Below are positions 43,958 through 49,529 of a DNA stretch of 64,000 nt, piece by piece. Each line of letters starts with the position of its first letter. Position 1 is the first letter of the stretch. Position numbers and translations under genes: made by a program. Origin of the DNA: an uncultured bacterium (GTDB lineage: Bacteria > Patescibacteriota > Saccharimonadia > Saccharimonadales > Saccharimonadaceae); the NCBI GenBank assembly GCA_903899655.1, contig CAIUKF010000008.1, positions 1-64,000 of the forward strand, written 5' to 3'. Under the pieces are notes generated by a model. The model was not told the DNA's origin, did not search any database, and saw only the letters and a list, made by a program, of their open reading frames with translations.

Positions 43958-44359
43958 GGGGCTGACTTAGCTTTCGACGAAGGGATTTTAACAGATTATT
44001 TTGCAAGTCGAATGTACACGTTACGTACAAACTTTAACTGCAAACTTTATTGCAAAAGCAAAAAGCTTCGTAGCTGAATTGGCAACTGCCTTCCAGCCAC
44101 AAGTTCTAGCAACAGCTCGGGTTTAACCTGGGCCATCGCACTATCCAGGCGACATAGAGATGGTGTCGGTGTTATAAGTATGTCGATTACCGCCTAATGG
44201 GGAGCAACGTTAGGATGGAAAGCAATATTGCGCGACGGATCAAAACTTTTTTGTTTGACTTTTAGTTAGACGAGTCGTTAAAAATTAAGGCAAACTATAC
44301 TTGTAGACGAATAATTTGTTACCTTTCGGACCGGGGTGCGATTCCCCGCAGCTCCACCA
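43958..44359 (+). ncRNA. ssrA: tmRNA
   Basis: 402 nt. The tRNA-like ends are GGGGCUG…CAGCUCC-ACCA with the T-arm CGGACCGGGGTGCGATTCCCC. The most likely tag frame starts at GCA 44040 and runs 28 codons to TAA 44124-44126, which sits in the loop of the GCUCGGG/CCUGGGC stem as usual. It begins ANFIAKAKSFVAEL and ends LATARV. The resume codon is inferred, not proven. Rescues stalled ribosomes. Confidence 0.93.
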
Positions 44360-45401: not shown

Positions 45402-45430
45402 TTGACCAAACATGTTGGTTATGCTATTAT
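45402..45430 (+). promoter_or_regulatory. Strong promoter for candidate ncRNA
   Basis: TTGACC (45402-45407), 17-bp spacer, TATTAT (45425-45430) with the extended TGC. Predicted start ~45437. Confidence 0.75.
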
Positions 45431-45436
45431 CTGGAC

Positions 45437-45811
45437 AGGTTTTATCAACAAAAACAAACAACAAAAACCTATCTATACCTTAACAATTTATATAACGACT
45501 GACTGTCATTTGACGGTAATTCGGTGACGGCACCAATCACTTTTTTAGTATTGTAGTTGGCGTCGCCGATGCTCCGCCAAATGGCGTGATGCTACCATGT
45601 TTAGTACGGAAGTGCTTTTACACGCAGATAAAATGCTAATATCTGTCTGCATATAAAAGCACTTCATGGAAACACATGAAGTGGCTATACCCGGTTATAC
45701 CGGGCGGTCAGACTCCTGCAGCGGCAGGTGTCTATTGGCTCTCACGCCCAAATTTTATTATTGGCGTATGTAGCAGCCTAGACATAAGCCTGTCGCTCAG
45801 GAAAATTTTTC
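45437..45811 (+). ncRNA. Candidate structured non-coding RNA, ~375 nt
   Basis: No ORF, but dense hairpins. These include AGGTTTT/AAAACCT around an A-rich 20-nt loop; TTGGCG/CGCCAA; GAAGTGCTTTTA with TAAAAGCACTTC enclosing GCAGATA/TATCTG; CACTTCATG/CATGAAGTG; CCCGG/CCGGG; GAC-CCTGC-agcg-GCAGG-GTC; and ACGCC-AA/TTGGCGT. The third and fourth share CACTTC (45660-45665), so they are mutually exclusive, like a switch. It ends near CCTG-tcgct-CAGG plus TTTTT. No match to rnpB, ssrA, SRP or known riboswitch motifs by eye. Confidence 0.55.
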
Positions 45812-45843
45812 TCATTTAAGCTTAAATGATATAGTTATGTAAT

Positions 45844-46230
45844 ATGTTAAAAATCATCATATCGATCACAACACTAGTCAGCCTCTGCTTTCTAATTATG
45901 TTGTTGAACACTACAACGCCAGCTACTGCTGGTCCTTTTGGTATTCTGGCGATTTTTATCTTTGCGTATATGTTGTCGATTGGTATTGTAACTTACTTAT
46001 TGTCTTACGGAAGTCGTTTGGCATCGCGTGTATCAATAGCGTTAAGAGCCAGAAGACCATTTGAGATCTTAACATTCAAACATTCGTATTATTATTCATC
46101 TGTTTTGGCGCTGTTCCCAATACTAATTATTGGTCTTCAGTCAGTGGGCGCTGTTGGATTTTATGAATTATTATTGGTGTTTATCTTTGTGATTATAGGT
46201 ACATTATATGTTTCGAAACGAGTTCATTAA
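45844..46230 (+). CDS. Small polytopic membrane protein
   Basis: 128 aa with about four membrane helices and a basic loop (RLASRVSIALRARRP) between the second and third. TGA-TATAGT (45830-45835) is 8 nt before the ATG. It may be a membrane partner of the ATPase encoded downstream. No family recognised. Confidence 0.65.
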   Translation: MLKIIISITTLVSLCFLIMLLNTTTPATAGPFGILAIFIFAYMLSIGIVTYLLSYGSRLASRVSIALRARRPFEILTFKHSYYYSSVLALFPILIIGLQSVGAVGFYELLLVFIFVIIGTLYVSKRVH

Positions 46231-46274: not shown

Positions 46275-46688
46275 ATGAAACCAGAAGCGCCAACGCCTCG
46301 TTTAAGTCCGGAATTGCCATCTGTTCAATATGGTCCAAATCTTGAGCATGTGCCTATTTTGAATAGTCCGGAAACAGGCGTAGAAAAAAGCGCTGAGCGC
46401 TATGAACAATCAGCTGAAACAAGTGCGATATTATCTGACATCGGCTTGACGACTGTTATACCGGCCCCTGTTGTTAATGACACACCTGTAGCTCAAGTTA
46501 CAACGATTAGTGATAACCCAATGACAGCAAATGATGATGATTTGATTGAAAAAGAATGGGTGAATAAAGCAAAAAAAATTGTTGCCGAAACACGCGACAA
46601 TCCACATAAACGTGAGCAGGCTGTCAATAAACTGCAGATTGATTATTTGAAAAAGCGTTATGGGAGGGAGCTGGGCGCCGCTGAATAA
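46275..46688 (+). CDS. Small soluble protein upstream of VirD4-like ATPase
   Basis: 137 aa. The N-terminal two thirds are Pro/Glu/Thr-rich and probably disordered; the C-terminus is helical (EKEWVNKAKKIVAETRDNPHKREQAVNKLQ). TGA-TATAAT ends 7 nt before the ATG (leaderless). A conserved-looking neighbour of the ATPase; function unknown. Confidence 0.65.
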   Translation: MKPEAPTPRLSPELPSVQYGPNLEHVPILNSPETGVEKSAERYEQSAETSAILSDIGLTTVIPAPVVNDTPVAQVTTISDNPMTANDDDLIEKEWVNKAKKIVAETRDNPHKREQAVNKLQIDYLKKRYGRELGAAE

Positions 46689-46715
46689 GCCGTTGTTTTG
46701 GTCAATATACATAAT

Positions 46716-49529
46716 ATGATAGGCTTTCTGGTTACAATCTTTGTCGTTATTATAGTCGGTACATCGGTCGCTTTTTTTGTCTATGCTCAGTACAAGAAGA
46801 TGTGGCGAGAGGCGAAGAATTATGAACGTGGACTTAAGATGGTGCCAATGTATATCCACATACCGCCATCAAGTGATGATTTAGAGACGGGTGGTCGTGA
46901 TGAGCGGGATATAACTGAAGAAGTGCTTTCGCAAGCACAAGTTATGTACAACATCATCTCGAGCACTGCAACCAAGGGTTTTAAAAGTCGAGTGTATGGT
47001 CAACGTCATATATCGTTTGAGATCGTTGCTAGGGATGGCTTAGTACATTATTACACTGTAGTTCCGACTGTGCTGGTTGATATTGTTAGGCAGGCAGTAT
47101 CAGCGGCTTATCCATCAGCCAGATTGGAAGAAGTCGAGGAACATAACATATTTAGCGAAGCTGGCAGGATAAGCGGAACTATTGGTGGAGAGTTTACGTT
47201 AAAAAAGAACTACGTCTATCCAATCGCGACCTATCAGGAGTCAAAGCGCGATGCCGCTAGGGCACTGCTAAATGCCTTGTCGACTGTTAATCGTGATGAT
47301 GGCATCGGTGTGCAACTATTGCTAAGGCCAGCTGGTAATAGTTGGACGAAAAATTCTATTTTTGCTGCCAATAAGATAAAAAAAGACAAGGGAGCCAAAA
47401 AATCAGCCATTGGTGGTATAAATATTATGCAGGCGCTTTGGAAGCCGATTGAAGCCAAAGAAATCAAACCAGAGGATAAGCAACTTTCATCACTTGAGCA
47501 GGGATTGGTTGATGCGATTGAAGAGAAAACTCGTCATCCGGGTTATGAAGTATTAATACGTGTCGTTGTATCATCTAATACGGCAGCAAGATCGCAGGCA
47601 TTACTGTCGAATATTATTGCCGCCTTTTCATTATTTGATTCGCCAACAAATAATGGCTTCAAGTTTAGCGTATCAAAAGATATCGAAGAGTTGGTAACGG
47701 CCTATATCTTTAGGTTCTTCCCTCAAGCTGTAAAACAGAGCATATTAAATAGCGTTGAGTTGGCAACGATATTCCACTTGCCAGACCAACATAGTATCCC
47801 GACCTCGCAGGTCCAGCGTCAAATGGCCAAGCAAGTTGATGGTCCAACCCAAGTTATGGAAGAGGGATTTTTGTTAGGCTACAACGAATTCCGTGGTACT
47901 AAAAAACAGATACGTTTAAGTACTAACGATCGTCGTCGACACACATATATGATTGGACAGACCGGTACTGGTAAGTCTGGTTTGCTGGAAAACCTAGCTT
48001 TTCAGGATATGATGGATGGTCGAGGTTTTGCCTTTATTGACCCACATGGTGACTCGGCTGAAAAATTGTTGGGCATGGTACCAAGGGAACGAGTCGAGGA
48101 TGTTATTTATTTTAGCCCAGGTGATATGGACAATCCGATTGGGCTTAACTTATTTGAGTTTGATACTCAAGACCAGCGCGATTTCTTGATTCAAGAGGCG
48201 ATTGCCATGTTGTACAGACTGTATGACCCAGGACACACCGGTATTATCGGGCCAAGGTACGAACATTGGTTCCGTAATGCGTCGCTAACTATTATGAGTG
48301 ATCCTAATGGGTCGACCTTTATTGATATCCCACAAGTCTTTAACGACCAAGCCTTTACTGATGAGAAACTAAAACATGTGACTGACCGTACGGTGCTTGA
48401 TTTTTGGAATAAAGAGATGGCACAAACCAGCGACGCTAATAAGTCAGAGGTTTTGGGTTGGTTTGTCAGTAAGTTTGGCGCCTTTTTGTCTAATGAGATG
48501 ATGCGTAACATCCTTGGTCAAACTAAAAGTGGATTTAGTCTGCGCGATATTATGGATAACAAAAAAATATTGTTGGTTAACCTATCAAAGGGCCGTACTG
48601 GTGAATTAAACTCGCAACTTTTGGGTATGATATTCGTCATGAAGTTTCAGGCAGCTGCCATGGGCCGAGCTAGCGTGCCTGAAGACCAGCGTGAAGACTT
48701 TGCGCTGTATGTCGATGAGTTTCAAAACTTTGCCACCGATAGTTTCCAGACGATTTTGTCTGAGGCTCGAAAATATCGCTTAAACCTAGTTCTGGCTAAC
48801 CAGTTCATGACGCAATTAACAGATAATATTCGTGAAGCAATTATTGGTAATATCGGAACCGTTATTAGTGGACGTATAGGTATAACTGATGCAGAGATAT
48901 TGCAAAAGAAGTTTGCACCGACGTTTGATGCTGAAGATTTAACTAAGTTACCAAACTTCCAAACGATATCATCGGTCATGATTAATGGTGTGCCATCAGC
49001 TGCGTTTAGTATGTCACTGGTGCCACCGATGGGGCAGTCAAATCCTCAACTGCGAGATGCGTTAAAGAAGCTGTCAGCAGCGAAGTATGGCCGGCCACGA
49101 GCTCAGGTTGAAAAAGAGATTTTTGCTCGTCTGGGTGCTGGTGATGCGGCTAAAAAGGCAAAGTTGGATGCTATCAAGCAGGCGCAACAAGAGCGAATGG
49201 ATAGAGCGTCAATGGCAGGACAACCTGTAGCTCCAGTAGCTAGTAGCAATGGCGGATCGTCGTTCTTGGATGACTGGTTAATAAAACGACAACAGATAGC
49301 TGCTAGTCAAGCGCCTTCAGCTGAACCTGTTGCAGTATCAGCGCTAGCGCCAGTACCTGCAGCACCAATACCAGCATCAGAATCAGCGCCTGCGCCTGTT
49401 CAGATGGTTGATTTTAGCCAAACGCCAACTGTTAATAATGGCACTTTTGTTCAGCCAATATCTCAAAGTGATGAGTTGCATATTCGCGAGAATGCAGCTG
49501 ATAGTGAAGTTTCAATCAAACTCCGCTAA
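46716..49529 (+). CDS. VirD4/TraG-like membrane ATPase
   Basis: About 937 aa. One N-terminal membrane helix, an N-terminal domain (~30-400) of unknown type, then a P-loop motor with Walker A GQTGTGKSGLLE (~residue 417), Walker B FALYVDEFQNF and a QFMTQL segment, as in type IV secretion coupling proteins/TraM-recognition ATPases. The C-terminal 100 residues are Ala/Pro-rich. The ATG at 46716 is preferred to TTG 46698. Probably moves DNA or protein across the envelope; no other T4SS genes are nearby. Confidence 0.85.
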   Translation: MIGFLVTIFVVIIVGTSVAFFVYAQYKKMWREAKNYERGLKMVPMYIHIPPSSDDLETGGRDERDITEEVLSQAQVMYNIISSTATKGFKSRVYGQRHISFEIVARDGLVHYYTVVPTVLVDIVRQAVSAAYPSARLEEVEEHNIFSEAGRISGTIGGEFTLKKNYVYPIATYQESKRDAARALLNALSTVNRDDGIGVQLLLRPAGNSWTKNSIFAANKIKKDKGAKKSAIGGINIMQALWKPIEAKEIKPEDKQLSSLEQGLVDAIEEKTRHPGYEVLIRVVVSSNTAARSQALLSNIIAAFSLFDSPTNNGFKFSVSKDIEELVTAYIFRFFPQAVKQSILNSVELATIFHLPDQHSIPTSQVQRQMAKQVDGPTQVMEEGFLLGYNEFRGTKKQIRLSTNDRRRHTYMIGQTGTGKSGLLENLAFQDMMDGRGFAFIDPHGDSAEKLLGMVPRERVEDVIYFSPGDMDNPIGLNLFEFDTQDQRDFLIQEAIAMLYRLYDPGHTGIIGPRYEHWFRNASLTIMSDPNGSTFIDIPQVFNDQAFTDEKLKHVTDRTVLDFWNKEMAQTSDANKSEVLGWFVSKFGAFLSNEMMRNILGQTKSGFSLRDIMDNKKILLVNLSKGRTGELNSQLLGMIFVMKFQAAAMGRASVPEDQREDFALYVDEFQNFATDSFQTILSEARKYRLNLVLANQFMTQLTDNIREAIIGNIGTVISGRIGITDAEILQKKFAPTFDAEDLTKLPNFQTISSVMINGVPSAAFSMSLVPPMGQSNPQLRDALKKLSAAKYGRPRAQVEKEIFARLGAGDAAKKAKLDAIKQAQQERMDRASMAGQPVAPVASSNGGSSFLDDWLIKRQQIAASQAPSAEPVAVSALAPVPAAPIPASESAPAPVQMVDFSQTPTVNNGTFVQPISQSDELHIRENAADSEVSIKLR

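Follow-up and report, generated by a model that had tools for sequence, protein, structure and literature searches.

A probable structured RNA gene shared across the class Saccharimonadia and adjacent to a small membrane protein gene

Positions 45402–45811 of the window, as we call the whole 64,000-nucleotide stretch of DNA analysed here, very probably hold an uncatalogued gene for a structured noncoding RNA, which is found class-wide in Saccharibacteria and forms an independent unit (the parts of this locus and the genes downstream of it all lie on the forward strand). The locus carries the GAGCGGUCAGU segment, a covarying 3' hairpin, a promoter of its own and, directly downstream, a membrane protein gene, the features by which the family described here is recognised. 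The account which we consider best, and to which we assign a probability of about one half, is that of a stand-alone, class-wide RNA gene with a trans-acting role in a ribonucleoprotein, the adjacent membrane protein being its likeliest partner. Saccharibacteria are tiny bacteria which in culture are attached to other bacteria. Genomes as reduced as these would be unlikely to keep an RNA across a whole class if it were dispensable; the gene gives this lineage a specific RNA together with a candidate protein partner, testable in cultured strains, and the covariance models from this analysis can now be used for annotating it.

The initial annotation had described a structured RNA with many hairpins and no ORF which was distinct from the housekeeping RNAs, and this description held. 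The predicted fold of 45437–45811 has an energy of −132.5 kcal/mol, whereas dinucleotide shuffles give −89.6 ± 5.7 (z −7.6; 0/100 shuffles as good). The only reading frames listed inside the locus specify 40–53 amino acids, the lengths of the homologues vary freely and the pairing covaries; there is thus no convincing ORF. The Rfam scan which had been proposed returned nothing: no Rfam 15 family matched at the gathering score or at E values up to 10, nor, with the limit at E 0.5, did any match a further 20 loci related to it, while RNase P, tmRNA, 16S and tRNAs were recognised in the same window. Matches at relaxed thresholds were sub-threshold microRNA-type and sRNA noise only, and were dismissed. 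We found no description of a Saccharibacteria-specific structured RNA in the open-licence literature. The tmRNA of the window (43958–44359; Rfam match of 105 bits) was missed by ARAGORN.

The near-consensus extended promoter noted initially is present in the sequence and conserved. It consists of TTGACC (45402–45407), a 17-nt spacer and a TG-extended TATTAT (45425–45430). Nearly all homologues in the genus have the same promoter upstream, with a spacer of 17 nt (18 in one locus) and the consensus TTGACC-N17-TAnnnT, TTATGC preceding the −10 element; that of the other families is TTGACA-N17-TAnnnT. Based upon the promoter and the 3' stem, the transcript probably extends from about 45437 to just past 45801. 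Copies from the window's own family showed no separate terminator hairpin ahead of the next gene; there the P5 stem and its U-rich tail would have to act as terminator. Among the other families, terminator-like hairpins lie between the RNA and the membrane protein gene in 18/29 loci (5/87 shuffles). The next gene has a separate extended −10 element (TGATATAGT, 45827–45835) located 8 nt before its ATG, and a TATAAT-like hexamer occurs within 24 nt of the membrane protein ATG in 59/95 loci, the corresponding share among the remaining ATGs of that DNA being 12.8%. Since the hexamer usually lies 6–10 nt from the ATG, the membrane protein mRNA would be nearly leaderless. This separate promoter, together with the terminators found elsewhere, argues for an independent RNA gene rather than a riboswitch leader. 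In the window at large, 16 of the 58 ORFs of at least 120 amino acids have a TATAAT-like hexamer no more than 24 nt from the first start codon, mostly at 3–10 nt, and this genome may have many leaderless mRNAs.

The RNA presumably begins with a hairpin (45437–45470, its start placed from the promoter) in which AGGUUUU pairs with AAAACCU around an A-rich loop (AACAAAAACAAACAACA). Homologues have an A-rich-loop hairpin at the matching 5' position; in the other families its stem reaches at least five pairs in 62/69 loci and its loop is 60% A. Further on, CUGACU (45499–45504) could pair with GGUCAG (45706–45711) to form an optional helix, P1, which would bury GGUCAG; an 8-bp ACUGACYG match exists in about one third of the window's family, many members being without it. 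P2 (45509–45581) is a long imperfect hairpin, UUUGACGG..UCGGU on one side and GCCGA..CCGCCAAA on the other, which forms the core of the BLAST matches; no other block is as well conserved within the genus. Among 38 sequences of the window's family, 13 of its pairs show compensatory changes (48 cells against 16 ± 3.4 after shuffling). P3 (45609–45665), formed by GAAGUGCUUUUA (45609–45620) and UAAAAGCACUUC (45654–45665), is kept as a helix while its sequence is not: over 31 homologues it scores 23.5 against 14.8 ± 0.57 in species-swap controls, with 0/100 swaps as high.

The 3' domain is the part most widely shared. The P4 hairpin, CCCGGU/ACCGGG, runs into the GGUCAG segment (45690–45712), whose consensus GAGCGGUCAGU appears in nearly every homologue, and is followed by P5 (45715–45801), a long 3' hairpin of CCUGCAGCGGCAGG (45715–45728) with CCUGUCGCUCAGG (45789–45801), and then by AAAAUUUUUC. 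In a 76-sequence alignment, which was fitted to the covariance model and so leans towards it, 33/37 pairs of this domain display compensatory changes and 93% of cells pair; the 488 compensatory cells compare with 117 ± 13 after shuffling (0/500 shuffles as high) and 53–80 with the partners slid. RNAalifold on an independent MAFFT alignment gave 37 pairs in the 3' domain, 24 of them with compensatory changes. The initial annotation had named homologues lacking conserved pairing as the outcome that would count against it; P2 and the 3' domain, with their compensatory changes, answer that concern. Other families have, for the most part, a compact form of about 150–200 nt, composed of the A-rich-loop 5' hairpin, P4, GGUCAGUCA and P5, and the RNA of the window's family measures about 370–440 nt. 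The best explanation would be that the latter adds P2 and P3 as extra domains to a compact core.

A riboswitch-like switch had also been proposed, in which CACTTC (45660–45665) pairs with either of two GAAGTG arms, so that two folds exclude one another. Both arms are present as described (45609–45614 and 45678–45683); the mutually exclusive switch is not conserved. The alternative stem, CACUUCAUG/CAUGAAGUG (45660–45683), scores 11.3 over the 31 homologues against 11.1 ± 0.36 with species swapped, 88/300 swaps being as high, and is genuine only in the window species and the one nearest to it. Because its score equals that of the species-swap control, whereas P3 far exceeds its own, we rule it out as a conserved switch. 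The RNA's own promoter, the terminators of other families and the separate downstream promoter likewise argue against a cis riboswitch.

BLASTN against 100 relatives recovered clear copies from most members of the genus to which the window belongs; the nearest homologue (genome G020) is 90% identical over the full length and the rest share short conserved cores. A first covariance model (R1), built from 22 sequences of the 3' domain, matched 70/247 genomes of the order. The weak cross-family matches of R1 which were inspected (19 loci, E 1e-2 to 1e-7) all had the same core, and within a few hundred bases downstream a small frame resembling the membrane protein or the second protein of the operon. 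An improved model (R2, 76 sequences) at E 0.01 under strict filters found the RNA in 253/393 genomes of the class Saccharimonadia, and a permissive re-search of in-class genomes previously unmatched added 20/37, these counts being lower bounds owing to the incompleteness of MAGs and the strict filters. Most genomes have a single copy; G040, G779 and G149 each have two model matches, possibly duplicates. Family f39, a member of the class but not of the order, carries a diverged copy, and families f38, f40 and f41 gave no match. A phylum-wide sample of 380 genomes yielded three weak matches outside the class, none of which was confirmed: one (G344) is located inside an open reading frame, another (G454) is without the core context and the third (G305) without the core segment. 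The exact core pattern was found 73 times in 84,980 species genomes, under titles which all read Saccharibacteria, Saccharimonadales/-monadia/-monas, Patescibacteria or unnamed MAG; as the pattern preselects its own bases, their invariance among these 73 matches is not evidence. Phage records and viral contigs contained no match to the RNA.

Next to the RNA is a gene (45844–46230) for a small membrane protein of 128 amino acids with four predicted transmembrane helices. All 27 alignable copies of the RNA lie directly upstream of this same gene, and a profile search placed the protein downstream in 69/73 loci chosen by RNA sequence alone. AlphaFold2 predicts four helices (pLDDT 93.6), and the middle loop and C terminus carry basic residues. 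The protein has no NCBIfam family and no significant PDB sequence match; a Pfam Kei1 match was below threshold (18.9 bits against 25) and was rejected. Foldseek with the model gave no match below E 2.5, and the best Z of VIA-align was 6.8, perhaps an arrangement common among helical bundles, with no clear PDB relative. Relatives of the protein exist in other classes of Patescibacteria (L157, L158, L159, L162–L174), mostly directly upstream of pheS, and no RNA was detected at those loci. The protein would therefore do without the RNA in some lineages, and their adjacency could be a gene order passed down from an ancestor. In family f39, RNA, membrane protein and pheS stand together, pheS taking the place of the VirD4-like operon behind the protein, which indicates that RNA and protein stay adjacent when the genes that follow them differ.

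The arrangement recalls OLE RNA, which is most often followed immediately downstream by the gene for OapA, a small membrane protein with four predicted transmembrane helices and a basic cytoplasmic side, which binds OLE RNA (PMC12265935). Both are long structured RNAs of unsettled biochemical function with the gene of a four-helix membrane protein next downstream. OLE, however, occurs in Bacillota, is described as about 600 nt long (PMC9723947) and has Rfam models, whereas the Saccharimonadia RNA spans about 150–440 nt and matches none; no covariance model placed our locus, or the 20 related loci, in the OLE family. RNA–membrane protein binding has been shown for OLE and OapA, whereas the Saccharimonadia pair is known from gene order and predicted helices. 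GOLLD, ROOL, HEARO and other large Rfam RNAs are likewise large bacterial noncoding RNAs, mostly of unsettled function; the RNA described here differs from them in having no Rfam 15 match, gathering or relaxed, and none in phage or viral contigs. GOLLD and ROOL are much larger and often phage-linked.

As a mechanism we might tentatively suggest, while giving it less than even odds, that the RNA works in trans in a ribonucleoprotein with the membrane protein, which is the most economical arrangement. The RNA would be transcribed from its own promoter, stopping before the membrane protein gene, and would then serve as the RNA part of the particle, making contact through its A-rich loop and the invariant, unpaired GGUCAGU(CA). 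The adjacent membrane protein would be the likeliest partner and would tether the RNA to the membrane, in the way that OapA tethers OLE RNA. Many membrane proteins have cytoplasmic loops rich in basic residues, which counts against this choice of partner. Should the membrane link be real, it would constitute a second natural system of RNA and membrane protein, after OLE/OapA, and one from an unrelated phylum. We consider it quite improbable that the two form a class-defining particle, possibly tied to the epibiont envelope, the secretion machinery or membrane-protein insertion, which, in a class that seems to lack the signal recognition particle (SRP), could form part of whatever has replaced it or makes up for it.

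Among the alternatives, the RNA could be a trans-acting regulatory or housekeeping sRNA unrelated to the membrane protein, its neighbour merely reflecting old gene order; it might, for example, base-pair with mRNAs, or bind a translation or transcription factor through the A-rich loop and GGUCAGU. We think this rather unlikely. The A-rich loop (CAAAAACAAAAAC) and the invariant single-stranded core would suit such a function, as would the existence of the membrane protein without the RNA in other classes, but RNA and membrane protein stay neighbours even where the genes that follow the protein have changed. (Complements of GGUCAGU in the window are scattered short matches and are not informative.) Unlikely as well is a cis-acting leader of the membrane protein operon, an attenuator or riboswitch in which the operon would be transcribed from the RNA promoter and the structured RNA would control read-through. 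Like such leaders it is a structured RNA with conserved unpaired segments, resembling aptamers, placed directly upstream of one and the same gene, and the terminator by which many lineages separate the two would also fit an attenuator. Unlike them, it is followed by a gene with its own near-leaderless promoter, the pairing named as its switch is not conserved, we noticed no antiterminator pairing that is conserved, and it is mostly present in one copy per genome with one target gene, which sets it apart from most riboswitch classes.

It is very improbable that the locus is a known housekeeping RNA, SRP RNA or 6S RNA, in highly diverged form. An abundant-type promoter and conservation throughout the class would fit a housekeeping role; moreover no SRP RNA was found in the window's own genome (G000) or its relatives (RF00169: none in G000 and one weak match among 30 genomes; RF01854: 0/40 genomes), and the only 6S candidate of that genome is weak (E 0.16) and lies elsewhere. 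But the multi-hairpin architecture lacks the GGAA-loop core of SRP RNA and the single long hairpin with a central bubble typical of 6S, and cmscan gave no match to either family (RF00013, RF00169, RF01854) at the locus even at E 10. The RNA-binding M domain of Ffh (PF02978) was absent from all 30 genomes examined, G000 and 29 relatives, and present in 14/14 controls, so that there would be no SRP protein for such an RNA to serve. From the searches for this domain and for SRP RNA, the signal recognition particle itself seems to be missing from these 30 genomes. Finally, that the locus has folding potential by chance or artefact and no function is hardly credible: none of the 500 shuffles reached the observed covariation and the slid controls fell far below it, while core, promoter and context are conserved class-wide; as far as structure and conservation go, it is already refuted.

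In Saccharimonadales the membrane protein gene is followed by a conserved pair (46275–49529), which we regard as neighbours and do not claim as parts of the RNA system: a 137-amino acid protein ending ..DDDLIEKEWV.. (46275–46688), and a 943-amino acid VirD4/TraG-like ATPase (46698–49529; Pfam T4SS-DNA_transf, 25.6 bits against a cut-off of 20.1). On the other side, several hundred bases upstream of the RNA, five loci from one family of the order (L066, L075, L080, L105 and L106) contain a second conserved intergenic element, TTTTTGTTTTTGAGCACTTAATTT..TTCAAGTGCTACACG and then TGTGCATAAC, the last of which resembles a DnaA box; the element is possibly an origin or another RNA.
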